Assembly: GCA_020845575.1 (NCBI GenBank)
Contig: JADLFL010000036.1
Span: 1 to 64,000, forward strand
DNA length: 64,000 bases
Source: Acidobacteriota bacterium
GTDB lineage: Bacteria > Acidobacteriota > Vicinamibacteria > Vicinamibacterales > Vicinamibacteraceae
Direction: 5' to 3'
Shown here one piece after another: positions 19,369 to 33,009 of the stretch (its first letter is position 1; the number at the start of each line of letters is the position of its first letter). The position numbers and the translations under genes were made by a program. Under the pieces are notes generated by a model. That model worked only from the letters and a program-made list of their open reading frames with translations, was not told the DNA's origin and did no database searches.

Positions 19369-20631
19369 ATGAACGTGTCAACACTCATCGGCCTGCAATG
19401 CCACGTGTGCCACACCGCATTCCCCGCGGAAGCCACCTACGTCTGCGATCAATGCTTCGGCCCACTGGAGCCGGTGTACGACTACGACAAGGCCCGCGCC
19501 ACGTTCACGCGCGAGACGATCGCGTCGCGCCCGCGCAACATGTGGCGCTACCGCGAACTCCTGCCCATCACGGGCGAACCGAAGACGGGTTTCGGTTCCG
19601 GCTTCACGCCACTGACTCCCGCACCCCGCCTCGCCGAGCGGCTCGGCGTGCGCGAGCTGTACGTGAAGGATGACGGCGTCAACCACCCGACGCTCTCGTA
19701 CAAGGACCGCGTGGTGTCGGTGGCCGCCACCCGCGCGATCGAGCTCGGGTTCACGACGTTCGCCTGCGCGTCGACGGGCAACCTGGGCAACAGCGTCGCC
19801 GCGCACGCGGCACGCCTCGGGCTCCGCTGCTTCGTGTTCATCCCCGACGACCTCGAGCCCTACAAGGTGCTCGGCTCGGCGATCTACCACCCCACGCTCC
19901 TCGCCGTGCGCGGCAACTACGACGATGTGAACCGGTTGTGCTCGCAGGTGGCCGACAAGCACGGATGGGGCTTTGCCAACATCAACCTGCGCAGCTACTA
20001 CGCCGAGGGCGCCAAGACGATGGGCTTCGAGATCGTCGAGCAGCTCGGATGGCGCTTCCCGCAGCACGTAATCACACCCGTGGCGGGTGGAACGCTCCTC
20101 CCGCGCGTGTTTCGCGGCTTCAGGGAGATGCACCGGCTCGGGCTCGGTGAGGGGGACCTGCCGCGCATGTACGGGGCGCAGGCGGAGGGCTCCGCGCCCG
20201 TGGTGCGAGCCCTGCACCAGGAACTCGACTACCCCGATCCGGTGAAGCCGGACACGATCGCCAAATCGATCGCCATCGGCAATCCGGCCGATGGCTTCCA
20301 GGTGCTGGAGGTGCTCCGTGAGTCGGGCGGATGGGGCGAGATGGCCACCGACAAGGAGATTCTCGACGGCATCGACCTGCTGGCCGAAACCGAAGGTATC
20401 TTCACCGAGCCCGCCGGCGGAACCACGGTGGCCGTCACGCGCAAGTTGATTGCCGCCGGCCGCATCCCGCGCAACGAATCCATTGTCGTCTGCATCACGG
20501 GCAACGGCTACAAGACGGCGGACATCATGGCGGACCGCGTGGCAAAGGCTGTGCCGATCACCCGCTCGCTCGCCGATGTGGACGCCTACCTGGCGGGCTC
20601 GCAGGCCGCCGCGGCCGAGGGGCGTGCATGA
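19369..20631 (+). CDS. thrC: threonine synthase with N-terminal zinc-ribbon motif
   Basis: PLP enzyme converting O-phosphohomoserine to threonine. The 420-residue protein begins with a rubredoxin-like CxxC pair set, Cys11/Cys14 and Cys26/Cys29 (CHVC and CDQC), a feature of the archaeal/plant-type class of threonine synthases. The PLP lysine is Lys112 in SYKDRVVSVAA, with the phosphate-binding region later (VAGGTLL). The gene is flanked by thrB (6 bp) and lysC (4-bp ATGA overlap), so the whole pathway from aspartate kinase through threonine, except asd, is in one transcript. Confidence 0.95.
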   Translation: MNVSTLIGLQCHVCHTAFPAEATYVCDQCFGPLEPVYDYDKARATFTRETIASRPRNMWRYRELLPITGEPKTGFGSGFTPLTPAPRLAERLGVRELYVKDDGVNHPTLSYKDRVVSVAATRAIELGFTTFACASTGNLGNSVAAHAARLGLRCFVFIPDDLEPYKVLGSAIYHPTLLAVRGNYDDVNRLCSQVADKHGWGFANINLRSYYAEGAKTMGFEIVEQLGWRFPQHVITPVAGGTLLPRVFRGFREMHRLGLGEGDLPRMYGAQAEGSAPVVRALHQELDYPDPVKPDTIAKSIAIGNPADGFQVLEVLRESGGWGEMATDKEILDGIDLLAETEGIFTEPAGGTTVAVTRKLIAAGRIPRNESIVVCITGNGYKTADIMADRVAKAVPITRSLADVDAYLAGSQAAAAEGRA

Positions 20632-21950
20632 GCCGCTTCGAACGCGCGAACCTGCTGGTGCAGAAGTACGGCGGCAGTTCGGTCGCCACGCCGGACCACA
20701 TCCGGAACGTTGCCGACCGCATCATTGCGTGTCAGCGTGAGGCGCGCCACATGGTGGTGGCGGTCTCCGCCATGGGCAAGACGACCGATCAGCTCATCTC
20801 GATGGCCGGCCAGGTGTCGGACAAGCCCGGCGGACGCGAAATGGATCAGCTCCTCGCATGCGGCGAAACCATTGCCGTATCACTGCTCGGGCTCGCTCTG
20901 CAAGCGCGTGGCGTGCCGGCCGTGTCACTGACAGCCGCGCAGTGCGGCATCCGGACCGATGGCTCCTTCAACAAGGCCCGCATCGCGCGCGTGGAGACCG
21001 GCCGTCTGGTCCACGAGCTCGAGAGCGGACGCGTGGTGATCGTCGCGGGCTTCCAGGGCGTCACGCGGGATCACGAGATCACGACGCTCGGACGCGGCGG
21101 CGGCGACATCACGGGCGCGGCGCTCGCTGCTGCGCTGCAGGCGCCCGTCTGCGAAATCTGCACGGACGTCGACGGCGTCTACACCGCCGACCCGAACGTG
21201 GTGGACACCGCGCGGCTGGTACCGGAGATGAGTTACGAGGCGGCGATCGAACTCGCCGCGAGTGGCGCCAAGGTGCTGCACCCGCGCGCTGCCGAGATCT
21301 GCATGCAGTACGACGTGCCCATCCACGTGCGGTCGACGTTCCATCGCCGCCAGGGCACCTGGATTCGCGGAGGAGTGATGGAAGACGCAGCGGTGGTGGG
21401 CATCACGTCGGACAAGAAGATCGCCAAGGTCACGCTGCTGGACGTGCGTGACGAGCCCGGCCTCGCGGCGGCCATTTTCCGCGACCTCGCCCGCGAGGAC
21501 GTCAACGTGCGCCTGATCATCCAGGCCGCCGCCAGTCACGATCGCAATCGCATCACGTTCGTCACCGACAACGATCAGGTGGATCGCATCAAGGAACTCG
21601 AACGTGCATGGCGCAAGCGCCGGATCGTCGGCCAAGTGGACGTGGACGTCGAGGTGGCCAAGATCGCGATCGTCGGCTCGCGCATCGCGTCCACGCCAGG
21701 ACTGGCGGCGCGAATGTTCACCGCCCTTGCCAAGGTCGGCGTGAACATCGACTGCATCAGCACCTCGGAGATGAAGGTGAGCTGCGTCATCGGTCGCGCG
21801 GATCTCGACCCGGCCGTACGCGCCGTACACGCGGAGTTCTTCGGCACGGCACGCGCAACCGCGCGCCGCTCCACCACCGCGCCCGTGCGCAAGGCCGTGA
21901 AGCGCGCGGCGACGACGAAGACGGCTACTTCCGCTCGTCGGGTGTCTTGA
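20628..21950 (+). CDS. lysC: aspartate kinase with basic C-terminal tail
   Basis: Phosphorylates aspartate at the entry to the aspartate-family amino acids. The 440-residue protein starts with the kinase motif LVQKYGGSSVA (residues 9-19), then the substrate segment GRGGGDITGAALAAALQA, and two ACT domains (~ residues 265-405) that would bind the allosteric effector (lysine and/or threonine). After the ACT domains a ~35-residue Arg/Lys/Ala/Thr tail (VRKAVKRAATTKTA) extends beyond the family's usual end. The ATG is fused to the thrC stop. The last 26 bp overlap the convergent VWA gene, so the tail may be a late 3' extension. Confidence 0.95.
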   Translation: MSRFERANLLVQKYGGSSVATPDHIRNVADRIIACQREARHMVVAVSAMGKTTDQLISMAGQVSDKPGGREMDQLLACGETIAVSLLGLALQARGVPAVSLTAAQCGIRTDGSFNKARIARVETGRLVHELESGRVVIVAGFQGVTRDHEITTLGRGGGDITGAALAAALQAPVCEICTDVDGVYTADPNVVDTARLVPEMSYEAAIELAASGAKVLHPRAAEICMQYDVPIHVRSTFHRRQGTWIRGGVMEDAAVVGITSDKKIAKVTLLDVRDEPGLAAAIFRDLAREDVNVRLIIQAAASHDRNRITFVTDNDQVDRIKELERAWRKRRIVGQVDVDVEVAKIAIVGSRIASTPGLAARMFTALAKVGVNIDCISTSEMKVSCVIGRADLDPAVRAVHAEFFGTARATARRSTTAPVRKAVKRAATTKTATSARRVS

Positions 21951-23193
21951 GGGCGTAGCCCTTGCGCGCCCACACGCTCACGTTCTGGCGCGTCACCTTC
22001 ACCTCGATCTGACGACGCTTGCGCGTGGGATCGGGGTTGCTCGAGTAGTACCCGAGCACGTAGTAGTCGCTCGTCTCCGCGTCGATGCGCTTGAGCGACT
22101 TGACGAAGTCGTTCTGGTTGACCACGGCCATGCCGCCGGTTTCCTCGGCGAGCACGCGCAGGCTGTCCTGCGTCTTGCGCACGTGGTTGCCCCACTCCGA
22201 CATGTCGACCTCATCGTCCATCTCGGGACCGCCGACAAGTCCGCGCGGGTCGATGGTGTACACCGTCGTGTTCGCGCGGTTGGCGGCGCGCGTCAGGTCC
22301 GCCAGTTCGCGCGCGAGATCGGCATCGGCGAACTGCTGCCCCTGACGATTGGTCACGGCAGCCGGGTCGCGCGGGTCCATGCCGGTCTGGTTGTACCCGT
22401 ACATCGCGTCGCGCTGGAGCCGTCCCTGCGGAAACGGATCGAAGTCGTAACCGTTGCTCACGAAGATGAGGGCCTTGCGGCGGTTCTGCACCTTCTCGAG
22501 ATCGCGCACCAGGTCGAACGCGGTGCTGAAGGCTACGTGCGCGCGATAACGCAGTTCCTGGTTGCCCTGCGATCCGCCGCCGGGCTGCTCGAGGATGTCC
22601 TTCGGCTTCAGGCCGCTCCCGCTGATCTTCTTGATCGACTCGTCGAGGCGCTTGCGGTCGTAGGTGAGATCGACAGAAATCGACGAAGGGCCCGTCGACA
22701 CGATCCCGAACATGTCACCGTCGTGAATCAGCTCGGTCGAGATCTTCTTGAACAGGTCACGAATGCGCGGCGTGTTCCGGAAGTCGAGATGGAGGTCGTC
22801 GACAAACAGCAGGAAGATGCGGCCCGCGGCGTCGTTGACCGGACGCGGCGGGGGAAGCACCATTCCCTCCTCCACCGGTGCCGGAGGCGGTGCGGCGAGA
22901 TTGAAATAGCGGCCGCCGTGTACCAACGTGAGCGAGGCCACCGTCTGCGTCACGCCATCTTCGAGGACGACGAACTCCTCTTTCTTCAGGTCGGCGAGGA
23001 ACTGCCCCGCATTGTCGCGCGGGATCACGTCCGTGCTCACAAGACTCGTGACTGTCGTGAAGTCGGGCCGCGATGGCTGTCGGGCGTCGGTGGCGGGTGC
23101 CGCCGGCGCCGGGGCCTGCTGCGCCGTCAGCGTGACAACGCCACACACCGCCATCATGGCCAGCCACCCGAGAGAGCTCACTCGTACAGACAT
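21925..23193 (-). CDS. exported VWA-domain protein, acidobacterial type
   Basis: A 422-residue secreted or periplasmic protein with a signal peptide (core SLGWLAMMAVCGVVTLTAQ) and a von Willebrand factor A-like fold of the kind called VWFA-related acidobacterial domain. Family-like blocks are VPRDNAGQFLADLKKEEF-type sequence, VLEDGVTQTVASLTLV, LLFVDDLHLDF, NRRKALIFVSNGYD and YYVLGYYSSNPDPTRKRRQIEVKV near the C-terminus. The metal-ion site is degenerate (VDD in place of DxSxS). The function is unknown; such genes are highly expanded in Acidobacteriota. It overlaps the 3' end of lysC by 26 bp and is third in a minus-strand operon with a 1-bp overlap to the gene before it. Confidence 0.85.
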   Translation of the reverse strand: MSVRVSSLGWLAMMAVCGVVTLTAQQAPAPAAPATDARQPSRPDFTTVTSLVSTDVIPRDNAGQFLADLKKEEFVVLEDGVTQTVASLTLVHGGRYFNLAAPPPAPVEEGMVLPPPRPVNDAAGRIFLLFVDDLHLDFRNTPRIRDLFKKISTELIHDGDMFGIVSTGPSSISVDLTYDRKRLDESIKKISGSGLKPKDILEQPGGGSQGNQELRYRAHVAFSTAFDLVRDLEKVQNRRKALIFVSNGYDFDPFPQGRLQRDAMYGYNQTGMDPRDPAAVTNRQGQQFADADLARELADLTRAANRANTTVYTIDPRGLVGGPEMDDEVDMSEWGNHVRKTQDSLRVLAEETGGMAVVNQNDFVKSLKRIDAETSDYYVLGYYSSNPDPTRKRRQIEVKVTRQNVSVWARKGYALKTPDERK

Positions 23194-23654
23194 CAGTCGA
23201 TTATAGGAGGCACCGCCGACTGGGGTACGGAAGTGGCGGCATCCGGGGCCGACCGACGCTGCCCCTGTTCGCCGCCCGACGCCGATGTACCACGCCGTCG
23301 CCTTCGTTTCCCGGTCCCCGCCTTTTCACCTGGTACCTCTGACGGCTGAGGCCGGCGCTCGGTCTTGGCGGCCGGACGCGGCCGGCGGGCCTGTCCGTCG
23401 ACGACCGGTGGGAGCCGTCGCTGCTCCACGTCCTCGAGAAGCGCCGGCCAATCGAACTGGATGTCCGGATAGCGCTGGTCGAGCGCGCGCCGTGTCTGTG
23501 GGTCGAGCGCCTGGCGGCCGAACGCAAGTCCCTGGGGCGCCGCACAGAAGTAGATCACCCGCAGGCGCGACTCGCCGCGGCCGTCTGGGCGATGCTGGAG
23601 CAGGTAGAGCGTGTCGACGCCGCGCTTGTCCCGGGCCAGTCGAATGAGCGGCAC
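23193..23654 (-). CDS. small protein of unknown function with basic, disordered C-terminus
   Basis: I do not recognise this 153-residue protein. The GTG start at 23654 follows AGGA, which overlaps the stop of the upstream gene. Residues 1-~75 look folded (RLARDKRGVDTLYLLQHRPD, VIYFCAAPQGLAFGR, ALDQRYPDIQFDWPALLEDV); the remainder is rich in Arg, Pro and Lys (KRRRRRG) and probably disordered. It is the middle gene of an operon: 12 bp after the PD-(D/E)xK/H1-like gene and overlapping the VWA gene by 1 bp. The basic tail matches its upstream partner in character, suggesting a shared ligand such as nucleic acid. Confidence 0.65.
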   Translation of the reverse strand: MPLIRLARDKRGVDTLYLLQHRPDGRGESRLRVIYFCAAPQGLAFGRQALDPQTRRALDQRYPDIQFDWPALLEDVEQRRLPPVVDGQARRPRPAAKTERRPQPSEVPGEKAGTGKRRRRRGTSASGGEQGQRRSAPDAATSVPQSAVPPIID

Positions 23655-23666
23655 GACTGTCGCGTC

Positions 23667-25166
23667 CTACTTCCGCTTCGGCTTGCCGGCCGATGGGCGT
23701 GCGGAGCGGGACGGACTGGCCGCCGCCGCGCGTCCAGCCGACGCGTGACGCGCGGCCGGACGTGCCGTCTTCCTGGAGGACACGGGCGGCCTCGCCGCCC
23801 GACTGGCCGACGCCGTCGCCGGGCGCGACGCGGCTGCACGTGTGGCACGCGCCGGCACCTTGGCGGCGCGCACGGGCGCCTTCGCCTGGCGCGTGACCTT
23901 GGCGGGTCGCCGCGCAGCGGCAACCTTGACCGCCGGCTTCTTGGTCGCCGGCCGCGCCGACTTGCCGGCCTTGTTCGCCTTGGACGCCTTCGCGGGAGCC
24001 GCCTTCTTCCGCGCTGTCTTCCCACGCGCTGGCGCGGCAGCCTTCACGACTTTCGCAGTCGTCGCGGCCTTCCCGGCCTTCCCGGCCTTCGCCTTCACAG
24101 GCGCGGCAGCCTTGGCGACCGTCTTCGACTTCGAGGCGGCCGGCTTGGTCGCCACGCCCTTGACCGGGGCAGCCTTCGCCGGCGCCTTTGCGCCAGCCGG
24201 CCGGGGAACGGCCTTCGGGGCTGGAACCACTGCCTTCGCAGGTGCCGGGGAGACCTTCGCGCCAGCCCGCCTCGGAACAGCGGCCTTACCCGCCGCTGCC
24301 CTGGACGTCGCGGCGTTGGCAGGTGCCGCGACGGCTGGCGGTGCAGGTGCTGGGGCCGTCGCCGGAACCGCCACGGGAGCTGCCGCCTTGGCCGCCGCCA
24401 CCTTGGCGGCCGCGGCCTTCACGGCAGCAACGGCAGCGCTCGTGGCGGCGCTCGGCGTCGTCGCTGGCGGAGCAGCCGCGGGCTTTGGCGCAGCCGCAGC
24501 CTTGGCCTTGGACGCCTTCGGCTTCGCGAGTTTGGTCTTGAGTGGCGGCAAACGGAGCGGTTCGGCCGCCGCGGCAGCCGCCGCCTCGGCGATCGCCCGC
24601 CGGCTGTCGATCGGCGACATTTCCTCGCGGCGCGGATTCAGGATGGCCGACTCGACGGCCGCCTCGATGTCGCTGGCCCGGCGCGTCTTGATGGAAACGA
24701 TCTCGACCAGCGGGGCTGCCCCCCGCGCGCCGGGTTGGGAGGGATCCACGTGGACACGCTCCAGCCGGATTTGCTCACCGCTCAGTGATGCGTAGGACCA
24801 GATTTCGGCGGGGGCGATCGAGTGTTGGGCGCACAACCGTCGCGCCGCATCCACGGCGGCAACCGGGACGTAGAGCTTGAACTGGGCGCGAGCCTTGGCA
24901 AACAGCACCCACTGGTACATCGCCTCGAGGTTGTTGACCGACTCGGCCGTCTCGACCTCGAGAATGGCGACGGGCTTACGCGCAGCGTCGTTGGAGGACA
25001 GGATCAGATCCGGGTACGCCTGGCCGGTGCCCGTCTTGATCGGCACCTTCCGCTCGTCGCCGACATTCGCTTCGACGACGAAACGTTCGCCAAACGCGAC
25101 TTCCAGGGCCCGGATGACCCGGTCGTGCTCGAATTGTTCGCGTACCGGACGGATGAGAATCGCCAC
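23667..25166 (-). CDS. PD-(D/E)xK-like domain fused to a long histone H1-like tail
   Basis: A 499-residue two-part protein. Residues 1-~200 look like a restriction-endonuclease-type fold: EHDRVIRALEVAFGERF, then GQAYPDLIL (Pro52-Asp53) and AILEVET (Glu70, Glu72), spaced as in PD-(D/E)xK nucleases, although the usual lysine of ExK is not evident. Residues ~205-499 are almost only Lys, Ala, Pro, Arg and Thr (KAAAAPKPAAAPP, VKAAAPARGKTARKK, ATKKPAVKVAAARR), like eukaryotic H1 tails and bacterial AlgP/Hc1. GTG 25166 is chosen because GGAGG lies 4 bp upstream; a GTG at 25256 would add 30 Arg/Gly-rich residues. DNA binding is inferred; whether the domain cleaves is not known. It heads a three-gene operon. 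Confidence 0.7.
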   Translation of the reverse strand: MAILIRPVREQFEHDRVIRALEVAFGERFVVEANVGDERKVPIKTGTGQAYPDLILSSNDAARKPVAILEVETAESVNNLEAMYQWVLFAKARAQFKLYVPVAAVDAARRLCAQHSIAPAEIWSYASLSGEQIRLERVHVDPSQPGARGAAPLVEIVSIKTRRASDIEAAVESAILNPRREEMSPIDSRRAIAEAAAAAAAEPLRLPPLKTKLAKPKASKAKAAAAPKPAAAPPATTPSAATSAAVAAVKAAAAKVAAAKAAAPVAVPATAPAPAPPAVAAPANAATSRAAAGKAAVPRRAGAKVSPAPAKAVVPAPKAVPRPAGAKAPAKAAPVKGVATKPAASKSKTVAKAAAPVKAKAGKAGKAATTAKVVKAAAPARGKTARKKAAPAKASKANKAGKSARPATKKPAVKVAAARRPAKVTRQAKAPVRAAKVPARATRAAASRPATASASRAARPPVSSRKTARPAARHASAGRAAAASPSRSARPSAGKPKRK

Positions 25167-25354: not shown

Positions 25355-26386
25355 GTGAACGACCGATTCCTCCGAGCCTGCCGCCGACAAGCCGTCGACG
25401 CCACCCCCGTCTGGTTCATGCGCCAGGCCGGCCGCTACATGCCCGAATACCGGGCCATCCGCCAGCGTTACGGCATGTTGGATCTGTGCCGAACGCCAGA
25501 GTTGGCTGTGACGGTGACGCTCCAGCCCGTCCAGGCGATGGAGGTGGATGCCGCCATCCTCTTCTCGGACCTGCTGCTGCCGCTCGCGCCGATGGGGTTG
25601 ACCTTCGACTTCGTGAAGGGCGAGGGCCCCGCCTTCGACAATCCGATCCGCTCGGTGGCAGACGTCGAGCGGGTCATCCCTATCGATCCCGTCGAGAGCC
25701 TCGGCTACGTCCTGGACAGCATCCGCCACCTGAAGCCGATGCTGAACGTCCCCCTGATCGGGTTCGTGGGAGCGCCGTTCACCCTGGCGTCATATGCGAT
25801 CGAGGGCGGACCGTCGAAGGACTTCGCGCGCACCAAGGCCATGATGTACGGCGAACCCGAGGCGTGGCATACCCTCTGCGCGCGACTGGCCGACATGGCT
25901 GGCACGTATCTGCGTGCGCAGGTCGCCGCCGGCGTGGACGCGGTCCAGGTGTTCGACTCGTGGGTCGGCCATCTGAGCCCGGCCGACTACCGCGAGTTCG
26001 CGCTTCCCCACACGCGCCGCGTGTTCGAGGCCATCGCCGACCTCGACACGCCATCGATCCACTTCGGCGTCGGCACCGCCACGCTGCTCGAAGGCATGGC
26101 AACGGCCGGCAGTACCGTGATGGGCGCTGACTGGCGCATCCCCCTCGACACGGCGTGGTCGCTCATCGGGTCCGAGCGCGGTATCCAGGGCAATCTCGAT
26201 CCCACGCTGCTCCTCGGCCCGTGGGATCGGCTGCAGCGCGCGGTCGAGGACGTCCTCGCGCGAGCCGGCGGCAGGCCAGGCCACATCTTCAACCTCGGGC
26301 ATGGCGTCCTTCCCATGACCTCCCCGGACGTCGTTCGGCGCGTGATCGATCTGGTCCATACCCTCAGCGCGACGTCGACGCGATGA
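25355..26386 (+). CDS. hemE: uroporphyrinogen decarboxylase
   Basis: Decarboxylates the four acetate groups of uroporphyrinogen III to give coproporphyrinogen III. The 343-residue protein has the family signatures PVWFMRQAGRYMPEYR near residues 19-34, the aspartate region ILFSDLLLP, GFVGAPFTLASYAIEGG, and the C-terminal FNLGHGVLP. The start is GTG 25355 (family sequence begins immediately). hemG overlaps its stop by 4 bp. The upstream 188 bp are shared with the divergent PD-(D/E)xK/H1-like operon. Confidence 0.97.
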   Translation: MNDRFLRACRRQAVDATPVWFMRQAGRYMPEYRAIRQRYGMLDLCRTPELAVTVTLQPVQAMEVDAAILFSDLLLPLAPMGLTFDFVKGEGPAFDNPIRSVADVERVIPIDPVESLGYVLDSIRHLKPMLNVPLIGFVGAPFTLASYAIEGGPSKDFARTKAMMYGEPEAWHTLCARLADMAGTYLRAQVAAGVDAVQVFDSWVGHLSPADYREFALPHTRRVFEAIADLDTPSIHFGVGTATLLEGMATAGSTVMGADWRIPLDTAWSLIGSERGIQGNLDPTLLLGPWDRLQRAVEDVLARAGGRPGHIFNLGHGVLPMTSPDVVRRVIDLVHTLSATSTR

Positions 26387-29281: not shown

Positions 29282-29357
29282 GGCCAGGGGCTGACGCCCC
29301 TGGCCTCCATCTGAAACGCTCGTCTTCGGATGAAGCGAATGGGCCTCAGCCCGTTGG
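29282..29357. repeat. REP-like composite palindrome, copy 3 (inverted relative to copy 1)
   Basis: GGCCAGGGGC (29282-29291), TGAC, GCCCCTGGCC (29296-29305) is a perfect 10-bp stem; CCTCCATCTGAAACG and GGATGAAGCGAATGGGC/GCCCGTTGG follow. The order of the two stems is reversed relative to copy 1, so the copies form a long inverted pair around 27.8-29.3 kb. The end of the convergent FlhB-like gene lies in this element. Confidence 0.6.
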
Positions 29358-29633
29358 TCGGCGATCGTTCTGCGACGTCCGGACCAGGAACGCAATCACT
29401 TCCGCGACGGCGCGATACAGTTCGACGGGAATCGCCGTCGCGGGCGGGAGCCGGGCCAGCAACGCGACGAGATCGCGGTTCTCGTGGATCGGGATCCCGT
29501 GTTCACGTGCCGCGGCGATGATGCGCTCCGCGAGCGCCCCTTCCCCACTCGCCACGACCTCCGGCACGGCGACCTCGCCCGGCACGTAGCGCAGGGCGGC
29601 CGCCTGCCGACGCGTACGTGCGGGTTCGGTCAT
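29346..29633 (-). CDS. FlhB C-terminal-domain-like protein
   Basis: A 95-residue protein resembling the cytoplasmic export-switch domain of FlhB/YscU without the membrane part: VPEVVASGEGALAERIIAAA, REHGIPIHENRDLVALL, and AIPVELYRAVAEVIAFLVR. The NPTH autocleavage site is absent, as in stand-alone forms such as Bacillus YlqH. In full FlhB this domain sets substrate specificity of flagellar export. Its ATG (29633) overlaps the stop of the FliK-like gene by 4 bp, so both are made together. No other flagellar gene is in this window, and the pair may have a role unrelated to flagella. Confidence 0.8.
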   Translation of the reverse strand: MTEPARTRRQAAALRYVPGEVAVPEVVASGEGALAERIIAAAREHGIPIHENRDLVALLARLPPATAIPVELYRAVAEVIAFLVRTSQNDRRPTG

Positions 29634-30769
29634 GCGTGCACGTCCACGATGGTCCCCGGCGGCACGTCAGGCAGTTCGTCCGGTGCGCTCACGGCCACCG
29701 GATCCACCACCACGCGCGTGAGCACACGCGCGAAACCGACGCGTTCGAGTGACATCGTCAGGTCGTCGAGGTGCGCTTCGATCCGATCGGCGGCCGACGG
29801 CTCTTCGACGAGGAACTCGGTGCGCATCCCGTCGGCGCCGAGACGGAGCCTGACGTGCACGCGTCCGAGCTCCGGCAACGTCATGTCGAAGCGCGCATGT
29901 CTCCACGGCGTCGAACCCTCGTCGTCATGGTCCGGCTCCGGATCGCGCGACACGCGCAAACGCAGATCCGTCTCGTGCGGGTCGACCTGCATGGGAATCC
30001 GCACGTCCACGATGCCCTCGCGAACAAGGTGCGCGGCAACCCGGGCCTGTTCGGCGAGCAGCGCGCCCTGAAGGTGTGACACCGCATCACGAACGTCACC
30101 GGGACCGGCCGGCAGACGCGCCAGGAGGGCCGCAAGCCTGAACCGCAGGTCCGCCGCAACCGCTGTTCCATCAGTCGCCTGACGCAGCACATCTGCCACG
30201 TGACGCTCCAGCATCACACCGCCCTGCGCAAGCCGTGCCGCCAGCGCACGCGCAAGTCCTTCGGCCGTCGCCGCGGCTGGTGAACCGGACACGTGGCTCG
30301 CGCCGCGCAGCGGCAACAGCAGGGCGAGCAGCGCGTCGGCATCGGCAGCGCCGAGGACCCGACGAGCCACCAGGTGCGGCACCTGGGTCGCCACCGCCGC
30401 CATGGCCTTCGCAACGTCGGGGGCCTCACGCGCAGCCAGCACTGCCGCGGCGAGCGCATAGCGATCCGGCGACACCGCGTCATGCGTCTCCGCGTCCGGC
30501 GTGGCGTCGACGTCGGCCGTGACGAGCCTGACGACGGGCTGCGCACCGCCCGCGACGACTTCGAGCCTGACGCGGGTCCCGGGCGGATGCGGAAGCGCGC
30601 CGCCGGCCATCACCTCGCGCCCCTGCATGGAGAGCAGCGTGCCGCCGTTCAGTCCGGTCGCCACCACCGTGGCGAGCAGGCGCTGCCCGACGGTGAACGT
30701 GACATCGGCGCTCGACACCGCAGTCCTTGCCTCTGTCGGCAGGAGCGAAGGCAGCAGCGTGATGTGCAT
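29630..30769 (-). CDS. FliK-like hook-length-control domain protein
   Basis: A 379-residue protein. The C-terminal ~110 residues resemble FliK C-terminal domains (FDMTLPELGRVHVRLRLGAD, TEFLVEEPSAADRIEAHLDDL, GFARVLTRVVVD). The N-terminal part begins with an OB-like segment (VGQRLLATVVATGLNGGTLL, MQGREVMAGG, GTRVRLEVVAGGAQ) and a long Ala/Leu-rich helical middle. FliK senses hook length and signals FlhB, and here it pairs with an FlhB-C-like gene, as in Bacillus ylqG-ylqH. ATG 30769 is chosen since homologous sequence starts there. It is divergent from ppk. Confidence 0.7.
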   Translation of the reverse strand: MHITLLPSLLPTEARTAVSSADVTFTVGQRLLATVVATGLNGGTLLSMQGREVMAGGALPHPPGTRVRLEVVAGGAQPVVRLVTADVDATPDAETHDAVSPDRYALAAAVLAAREAPDVAKAMAAVATQVPHLVARRVLGAADADALLALLLPLRGASHVSGSPAAATAEGLARALAARLAQGGVMLERHVADVLRQATDGTAVAADLRFRLAALLARLPAGPGDVRDAVSHLQGALLAEQARVAAHLVREGIVDVRIPMQVDPHETDLRLRVSRDPEPDHDDEGSTPWRHARFDMTLPELGRVHVRLRLGADGMRTEFLVEEPSAADRIEAHLDDLTMSLERVGFARVLTRVVVDPVAVSAPDELPDVPPGTIVDVHA

Positions 30770-30840
30770 GACGCGCGTCGGCAGGAGTGGAACACCCGCT
30801 TTGTTATCATCGACGAGGCCTCCCGGCAACAACCAGACGC

Positions 30841-33009
30841 ATGAACGCCACAACCGCCATCAAGGACCGTGCGCCGCGAGGGCGAGGCGGAAAGAGACGT
30901 GTCCGCCTCCCTGCGGCGCGCACGGACTGGTCGCAGCTCGACCCGGCGCACCTCGAGCATCCCGCGCTCTACATCAACAGGGAACTGAGCTGGCTGGGGT
31001 TCAACCAGCGCGTCCTGAACCAGGCGCTCGACGCCACTCACCCACTGCTCGAGCGCGTCAAGTTCCTCGCCATCGTCGCCACCAACCTCGACGAGTTCTT
31101 CATGGTGCGCGTGGCGACGCTGCTGAAGAAGTACCGCGCCGGCATCGAGGACGTGAGCGTCGACGGCCTCAACACCGAGCAACAGTTGGCGGCAACGCGC
31201 GCACGATCGCTGGAGATGATGGCCGCGCTGACCGCGTGCTGGCGCGATCGGATTCGCCCCGCGCTGGCAACCGAAGGCGTGCATCTTCTGGAGCCCGCCG
31301 AATACACGCCGGCTCTCACCGCGCATCTGGCGCGCTACTTCCGCGACGAGATCCTCCCCGTCCTCACGCCACTGGCCTTCGATCCGGGACACCCGTTTCC
31401 GTACATCTCGAACCTGAGTCGTAACTTCGCCGTGGTGGTGCGGCACGGCGGACGCACGAAGTTCGCGCGCGTGAAGATCCCTGCCACGCTCGATCGCTTC
31501 GTGCCCGTACCTCCGTCGCTCTCGCCGCGCGGAGGGCACGCGTTGGTCTTCCTCGAAGACGTCGTCAGGGCCAACCTCCAGCAACTGTTCCCGGGTACCG
31601 AGTTGCAGTCGGCCCACCTGTTCCGCATCATCCGCGATACGGACATGGTCATTCAGGAAGACGAGGCGGACGACCTGCTCGAGACCGTGGACAGGAGCCT
31701 CAAGCAGCTCCGCTACGGCGCTCTTTGCCTGCTCGAAGTGGAAGACGCGATGCCGCGGCGGGTCCTCAACATCCTCAAGGAGAACTTCGAGGTCGACGAG
31801 GACATCGTGGTGCGCACCGGCGAGCGCATGGACTGGGACGACTGGCACCAGTTGACGCGCCTGCACCTGCCGCACCTGAAGGACGCGCCGTTCTCGCCGC
31901 GCAGCATCTGGTCCGGATACACGGAGATCTTCGACGACCTCCGCGAGGAGGACACCCTCGTCCATCACCCGTTCGATTCGTTCTCCTCGGTCGAAGCCTT
32001 CCTCCGTGCGGCCATCGAGGATCCGCAGGTCATCGCCATCAAGATGACGCTGTACCGGATCGGATCGAACTCTCCGCTCGTGGACATGCTCATCACGGCC
32101 GCCGAACAGGGCAAACAGGTGGCCGTGCTCGTGGAACTGAAGGCACGGTTCGACGAACGCAACAACATCGAATGGGCGACGCGCATGGAGGCGGCGGGCA
32201 TTCATGTGGTGTATGGACTGGTCAGCCTCAAGACGCATGCCAAGTTGTGCCTGATCGTACGCAAGGAGCAGGACGGCATCAGGCGATACGCGCACGTCGG
32301 GACGGGCAACTACAACCGCGCGACGGCTCAGATCTACACCGACATCGGCCTGTTCACGTCCGACGCGGCGATCGTCGACGACATCACCGACGTCTTCAAC
32401 TACCTCACCGGGTATTCGAACCGGAAGTCGTACGACCAGTTGCTCGTGGCACCGGTGTCACTGCGATCGCAGTTGAAGGCCCTGATCGACCGTGAGTGCG
32501 AGCACCACAAGGCCGGACGCCCCGCTCGGCTCATCTTCAAGCTGAACGCCATCGCCGACCCGGGCGCGGTGCGCAAGTTGTATCAGGCCAGTCAGTGCGG
32601 CGTGCCCATCGATCTCATCGTGCGCGGTGTCTGTTGCCTGCGCCCCGGCGTGCCCGGGATCTCCGACACGATTGCCGTGCGCTCCATCGTCGGACGGTTC
32701 CTGGAGCATTCACGCCTCTACTACTTCGAGAACGGCGGCGACCCCGACATCTACATCGGCAGCGCGGACCTGATGGAGCGCAACCTCGATCGCCGCGTGG
32801 AGGTCCTCTGTCCGGTCCATCAGCCCGACCTGCGCGCGCATCTGCGCGACGTCGTGCTGGATGCGCTCCTTGCCGACACGGACCGCGTGCGCATCCTCCA
32901 GACCGACGGGTCGTACCTGCCGGTGACCACGCCGCCAGGCACCGATCGCGTCAATGCCCAGGCGCGACTGCTCGACGTGTACTCGCAGATGTCGTCCTCC
33001 GCTCTCTGA
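30841..33009 (+). CDS. ppk: polyphosphate kinase 1
   Basis: Polymerises the gamma-phosphate of ATP into inorganic polyphosphate and can run in reverse. The 722-residue protein has the N-terminal domain (PALYINRELSWLGFNQRVL), the head domain, and two phospholipase-D-like C-terminal domains with the autophosphorylated histidine in RYAHVGTGNYN and the second conserved histidine in a later catalytic segment. Basic residues in residues 1-25 extend the usual N-terminus. The ATG at 30841 is preferred to an upstream in-frame ATG inside the divergent promoter region. The CBM9-like gene follows after 6 bp. Confidence 0.95.
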   Translation: MNATTAIKDRAPRGRGGKRRVRLPAARTDWSQLDPAHLEHPALYINRELSWLGFNQRVLNQALDATHPLLERVKFLAIVATNLDEFFMVRVATLLKKYRAGIEDVSVDGLNTEQQLAATRARSLEMMAALTACWRDRIRPALATEGVHLLEPAEYTPALTAHLARYFRDEILPVLTPLAFDPGHPFPYISNLSRNFAVVVRHGGRTKFARVKIPATLDRFVPVPPSLSPRGGHALVFLEDVVRANLQQLFPGTELQSAHLFRIIRDTDMVIQEDEADDLLETVDRSLKQLRYGALCLLEVEDAMPRRVLNILKENFEVDEDIVVRTGERMDWDDWHQLTRLHLPHLKDAPFSPRSIWSGYTEIFDDLREEDTLVHHPFDSFSSVEAFLRAAIEDPQVIAIKMTLYRIGSNSPLVDMLITAAEQGKQVAVLVELKARFDERNNIEWATRMEAAGIHVVYGLVSLKTHAKLCLIVRKEQDGIRRYAHVGTGNYNRATAQIYTDIGLFTSDAAIVDDITDVFNYLTGYSNRKSYDQLLVAPVSLRSQLKALIDRECEHHKAGRPARLIFKLNAIADPGAVRKLYQASQCGVPIDLIVRGVCCLRPGVPGISDTIAVRSIVGRFLEHSRLYYFENGGDPDIYIGSADLMERNLDRRVEVLCPVHQPDLRAHLRDVVLDALLADTDRVRILQTDGSYLPVTTPPGTDRVNAQARLLDVYSQMSSSAL

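Follow-up and report, generated by a model that had tools for sequence, protein, structure and literature searches.

To our knowledge, the basic, histone H1-like tails of bacteria sit mainly on DNA-organising proteins, namely AlgP, PhaF and mycobacterial HU. We know of no such tail on BamHI, which belongs to a restriction-modification system, on NucS, whose motif is ExK, or in the YaeQ family. Nor do we know of an established nuclease role for YaeQ or SfsA, although both have the PD-(D/E)xK fold, so the fold alone does not give activity.

In AlgP of Pseudomonas aeruginosa, the K/A/P-rich tail binds DNA, and the protein is located at polyphosphate granules (PMC9239181). For the mycobacterial protein MDP1, the organisation of the genome is attributed to its disordered C-terminal region (PMC5974015). 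Among the nucleases, a review of the Type II enzymes describes the replacement of the motif lysine by E in BamHI, by Q in BglII and NotI, and by N in MspI (PMC4081073). Here, we describe a gene of the Vicinamibacterales in which a domain predicted to have the PD-(D/E)xK fold is joined to an H1-like tail.

Gene and domain organization

The window, that is, the whole 64,000-nucleotide stretch of DNA analysed, belongs to contig C36; the genome measures 4.57 Mb. The gene of interest occupies positions 23667 to 25166 on the minus strand and encodes a protein of 499 residues from a GTG start codon, with GGAGG a few bases upstream. A longer upstream open frame of 529 residues is available for the same gene; however, the starts of the homologues align at the V-A-I / V-S-P-I position, downstream of a GGAGG-like site, and the GTG start is therefore favoured. 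An earlier sequence-only reading had placed the gene in the same way (25166 to 23667, minus strand, GTG, 499 residues), and the shared start in relatives bears this out. A scan upstream of the gene for promoters and terminators found none.

Residues 1 to 142 (24741 to 25166, minus strand) form the PD-(D/E)xK-like domain, as delimited by the alignment of 76 homologues, the AF2 model and the structural neighbours found with VIA-align. They are followed by an extension, residues 143 to 215 (24522 to 24740, minus strand), which is recognised by similarity at the genus level and for which the AF2 model gives, with moderate confidence, a strand (154-158) and helices (164-176 and 185-200). Residues 216 to 499 (23670 to 24521, minus strand) are the H1-like tail, assigned from its composition and from its presence in the complete homologues. 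The nuclease-like domain of the sequence-only reading thus stands, but not its extent of about 200 residues: the order-wide boundary lies nearer residue 142, and residues 143 to 215 are a partly helical extension in the genus of the window.

Predicted fold of the N-terminal domain

The AF2 model, computed from 76 sequences, has a mean pLDDT of 85.4 and a pTM of 0.71, with pLDDT values of 89 to 98 across residues 11 to 140. It consists of a helix (8-26), five strands (30-33, 43-45, 48-50, 54-57 and 65-71), a helix (79-90), a strand (95-101), a helix (102-114) and two final strands (121-128 and 132-140). P52-D53 opens one strand, and E70-x-E72 lies at the end of the next.

Foldseek alone, run against the PDB, gave no match below an E value of 0.07 (top row, 1xmx), and against BFVD it gave a single, unnamed match (8.8e-4). 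The best 1000 Foldseek chains were re-ranked with VIA-align, and the 50 rows of the resulting list were judged by title; about four-fifths of them name restriction endonucleases or further PD-(D/E)xK proteins. Their Z values, any single one of which at 7 to 8 can also arise by a chance arrangement, are 8.1 for AF1548, 7.2 to 7.7 for YaeQ, 7.6 for PaqCI and for BsmI, 7.5 for NucS (98 residues, 3.4 Å), 7.1 for EndoMS, 7.0 for SfsA, 6.9 for XisH, 6.7 for Can2, 6.5 for NgoMIV and for BstEII, 6.4 for Bax1, 6.0 for DUF820 and 5.6 for Hjc. Clearly unrelated rows, CoaBC and a ketopantoate reductase, rank lower (5.5 to 5.6). The evidence for the fold therefore lies in the concentration of one superfamily in the list and not in single Z values. 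The alpha-beta-beta-beta-alpha-beta core of the PD-(D/E)xK fold is found in the predicted structure and agrees with the VIA-align list, and we predict with confidence that the domain has this fold. This is the fold proposed from the letters of the sequence; an unrelated one, named beforehand as evidence to the contrary, was not what emerged from the model and its mostly PD-(D/E)xK neighbours in the PDB.

The structural resemblance to NucS/EndoMS is not complete, since the window protein has ExE and is without the extra N-terminal domain, and the NucS_C profile (PF01939) matches neither the protein, nor 18 of its homologues, nor anything else in its own genome. The replacement of mismatch repair and the replacement of RuvC were also considered as roles and rejected: MutL and RuvC are each over the cut-off in 38 of 40 relatives, and with MutL so widely present there is no missing mismatch system for the protein to replace. 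The YaeQ family shares the compact single-domain PD-(D/E)xK-like fold with the window protein, which differs in being without any Pfam match.

Invariant acidic residues and the missing lysine

The putative active site is D53...E70-x-E72, with the motif letters P52-D53 and E70-V71-E72. In the alignment of 76 homologues, which has a mean column identity of 45%, the invariant residues are R6, P7, R9, E10, Q11, E13, H14, R19, L21, N34, D53, E70, E72, T73, S76, N78, E81, W86, L98, Y99, P101 and E121. ExE is present in all 80 loci fetched by two peptide patterns and ExK in none; one of the patterns includes EVET, so the invariance of this motif is partly ascertained, and the same invariance is seen in an independently found set of 18 homologues. 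The acidic pair of the superfamily (D53 and E70) is thus always present, together with E72, and the PD...ExE pattern noticed in the single sequence is not a chance one. The lysine of (D/E)xK, which is usual but not strictly defining, is replaced by Glu in 80/80 loci.

This arrangement is that of the BamHI active site, which is also D...ExE with Glu in place of Lys (PMC4081073), and PD and ExE lie on adjacent strands in the predicted core of the window protein. No sequence similarity to BamHI was found, and the activity of the window protein is a prediction. The sequence-only reading had considered that the missing lysine might mean inactivity. Since the active BamHI has Glu at this position (PMC4081073), a site that lacks Lys may still be active, and the acids, being invariant, point away from inactivity. 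The domain would then cleave phosphodiester bonds in a metal-dependent manner.

A histone H1-like tail conserved in composition

The tail of the window protein contains 39% A, 14% K, 13% P, 8% R and 0% D/E, carries a net charge of +64 over about 285 residues and ends in KPKRK. Every homologue with a complete reading frame (75/75) has a basic tail, of 42 to 405 residues (median, 78) and a net charge of +12 to +59, and in 74 of the 75 at least two of the last three residues are basic. With its length, its richness in K, A and P, its lack of acids and its low complexity, the tail is of the H1-like type. When a strict K-rich-tail criterion was applied to approximately 1 Mb of flanking DNA, it selected 48 ORFs of this family and 6 others. 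The H1-type tail described from one sequence is therefore a feature of the family; the alignment of homologues, suggested at that time as a check for varying acids or a varying tail, shows both to be kept (the acids in 76 sequences and the tail in 75/75).

When four genomes from this genus are compared, tail identity is 36 to 50% (50 to 64% of aligned positions differ) versus 84 to 96% for the domain (4 to 16% differ), and the composition and charge of the tail hardly vary. Selection thus seems to keep a basic tail and not a particular sequence. AlgP shares a long, disordered, K/A/P-rich C-terminal tail with the window protein (PMC9239181), but differs in that its repeats are regular (KPAA) and its N-terminal domain is helical instead of a nuclease fold. 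MDP1/HupB also combines a folded domain with a long disordered tail (PMC5974015), the folded part being an HU domain instead of PD-(D/E)xK. Its charge and these precedents suggest that the tail may bind DNA or another polyanion.

Basic tails were also observed on other proteins of the region. An aspartokinase with AA_kinase and ACT domains (20616 to 21950 of the window, plus strand) has a short basic C-terminal tail (RATARRSTTAPVRKAVKRAATTKTATSARRVS), which is odd for an amino-acid kinase and is longer in the close relative L033; its presence on an unrelated protein in the same genus indicates that such tails may arise easily here. A further small protein of relatives, encoded near hemE, has a C-terminal tail rich in K and A (L110, 4813 to 5151; L046, 5719 to 6291; L079, 3135 to 3488; L097, 2479 to 2820), in some cases with the motif RKFL..LAK.EPSSEPAP.

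Distribution and family searches

With residues 1 to 200 as query, one copy each was found in 34 of 40 relatives. Across the phylum, a profile of the first 143 positions (E value, 0.001) matched 27 of 297 genomes, all 27 inside the Vicinamibacterales. Of the 149 genomes searched within the class (E value below 1e-3), 97 carry the gene, each as a single copy; all 97 belong to the order, which contributes about 118 genomes as counted from the search table, and no convincing match was seen in the roughly 31 class genomes outside the order at E values up to 1. A few homologue records are labelled "Acidimicrobiia" or "Bifidobacterium breve"; these were taken as mislabelled MAGs. In one family of the order (f8), the gene is present in 5 of 16 genomes and absent from 11, nearly complete ones included, which suggests loss within this family. 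It is also absent from some genomes of the order outside f8, and together these absences indicate that the gene is not essential.

No match was found in 50,697 phage records or 72,556 plasmid records, and a phage or plasmid origin was rejected for this reason. Taken with the single copy in most genomes of the order, this points to a housekeeping gene rather than a mobile one.

The protein and/or 18 of its homologues were searched against Pfam, NCBIfam, PHROGs and PADLOC, and no convincing match was obtained. The best PHROG match is 36530 (0.0027), of unknown function, and the weak PADLOC matches are CARF4--CARF_PDDEXK (0.011) and REase_II (0.017), with one member each. A sequence search of solved structures gave no match, and there was no match at the sequence level to any nuclease family in the libraries searched. 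The literature search found no description of a nuclease fold combined with an H1-like tail. The remark of the sequence-only reading that no described family has this pairing therefore holds for the four libraries. Conservation of the pairing spans one order, and the libraries searched contain no family that it matches; within a very large fold, the protein represents a member specific to this order.

Neighbouring genes

The second gene of the pair (23193 to 23654, minus strand), characterised by alignment and by an AF2 model of a homologue, encodes a protein of 153 residues without an assigned function, here called u153. Its N-terminal domain, of about 80 residues, is conserved and beta-rich; many relatives carry in addition a helical region and a tail rich in Arg. 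The AF2 model of the 228-residue homologue from locus L043, which is longer than the window copy, shows the beta-rich domain and a three-helix C-terminal part with good local confidence but a pTM of 0.47. The helical part resembles many helical bundles with uninformative Z values. u153 has no Pfam match and in the phylum sample is confined to the same order. It follows the nuclease-fold gene in 67 of the 75 loci with complete genes, the stop and start often abutting or nearly so; 12 nt separate the two in the window.

The stop of u153 overlaps the start of a gene for a TIGR03436 acidobacterial VWA-domain protein (21925 to 23193, minus strand; NCBIfam E value, 4.4e-48) with a signal-peptide-like N terminus. 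This gene lies less than 300 nt from u153 in 40 of 56 loci and more than 600 nt away in the other 16. In the distant cases inspected, the translations were read as placing a TVP38-like membrane protein between the two, joined in some loci by rpiB on the opposite strand. Of the operon of three genes proposed earlier, the tight packing in the window and the pairing with u153 are confirmed, but the VWA gene is associated only loosely. A VWA protein with a signal-peptide-like start recurs in most loci near a nuclease-fold gene of cytoplasmic appearance.

On the other side, hemE, for uroporphyrinogen decarboxylase (25355 to 26386, plus strand; PF01208, E value 5e-129), is divergent in the window and in most loci, and is likely only a neighbour. 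No DNA-repair gene was found in this neighbourhood (hemE, VWA protein, TVP38-like membrane protein and rpiB). Elsewhere in the window, a protein of 95 residues (29346 to 29633, minus strand) matches only the C-terminal part of FlhB (Bac_export_2, 262-334), and its ORF overlaps a FliK-like gene (Flg_hook; 29630 to 30853, minus strand); in the region read, this pair stands apart from any flagellar cluster.

Discussion

The computation establishes an open reading frame whose putative active-site acids are invariant, whose basic tail is universal among complete homologues, whose single-copy distribution is restricted to one order and which forms a gene pair with u153. We put at about 0.5 the probability that its product is a chromosomal, DNA-tethered, metal-dependent PD-(D/E)xK nuclease for DNA maintenance, a reading in which we infer the catalysis, the DNA substrate, the ligand of the tail and the partnership with u153. 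The active site would consist of D53 and E70-x-E72, with Glu where most relatives in the superfamily have Lys, as in BamHI; E13, in the first helix, would probably assist. The K/A/P-rich tail would act as a sequence-independent clamp for polyanions, most likely for DNA, holding the enzyme on the nucleoid and raising its local concentration on the chromosome, where the domain would recognise and cut a particular DNA structure or lesion. Such a role would belong to the DNA maintenance of the order and not to phage defence, and the nuclease would probably act with the co-encoded u153.

The absence of the catalytic lysine from all homologues (80/80 ExE) would also fit a dead PD-(D/E)xK domain in a structural nucleoid-associated protein, with the domain binding or bridging DNA or u153 and the tail condensing DNA. 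The long H1-like tail in the genus of the window and the co-conserved u153, Arg-rich in many relatives, agree with such a function. However, an inactive site would be expected to drift, whereas all 76 sequences, at a mean column identity of 45%, share D53, E70, E72, E13, N78, E81 and W86, and ExE can be active, as in BamHI (PMC4081073); we therefore consider a dead domain rather unlikely. K/A/P- or R-rich tails bind any polyanion, and the Arg-rich clusters at the end of u153 in many relatives could likewise be read in favour of an RNA endonuclease that its tail keeps attached to RNA or to ribosomes. The PD-(D/E)xK structural neighbours listed are mainly DNA enzymes, and no RNA-metabolism genes are found in the conserved neighbourhood, which makes an RNA substrate improbable.

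The precedent of AlgP, with its DNA-binding KPAA tail and its location at polyphosphate granules (PMC9239181), raises the case of a tail that places an inclusion, polyphosphate or another, on the nucleoid, the domain being a scaffold or an inclusion hydrolase. Indeed, ppk1 is found 5.6 kb from the gene in the window and also near it in L033. Among the 80 loci, L033 is the only one with ppk1 nearby, so the link is not conserved, and the N-terminal domain of AlgP is helical and not of the fold found here (PMC9239181), leaving little credence for this proposal. A restriction or phage-defence nuclease, which the PD-(D/E)xK fold and the weak PADLOC matches (CARF4--CARF_PDDEXK, 0.011; REase_II, 0.017) might suggest, is just as hard to reconcile with a single-copy gene that keeps the same chromosomal neighbours across the order, has no methylase or defence genes seen near it and has no copies in phage or plasmid records. 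The marks of anti-phage defence, namely a match to a defence model, a patchy distribution and a defence or mobile context, are not those of this gene, and we regard such a function as very unlikely.

The product of this gene of a soil bacterium is thus probably a DNA-tethered nuclease that has so far not been described. A wider proposal, that the root of the order gained a lineage-specific nucleoid enzyme, a nuclease with an H1-like tail, which forms with the lineage-specific u153 a chromosome-maintenance system without counterpart elsewhere, is tentative and, in our estimate, somewhat doubtful. What distinguishes this protein is that the H1-like tail is joined, throughout an order, to a nuclease fold with unchanging catalytic acids. 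If the domain is active, the protein would show how a chromosome can permanently host a nuclease and yet not be destroyed by it; if it is inactive, a nuclease fold would have been turned, unusually, into a chromatin protein. Active or inactive, the gene is a signature of a bacterial order.
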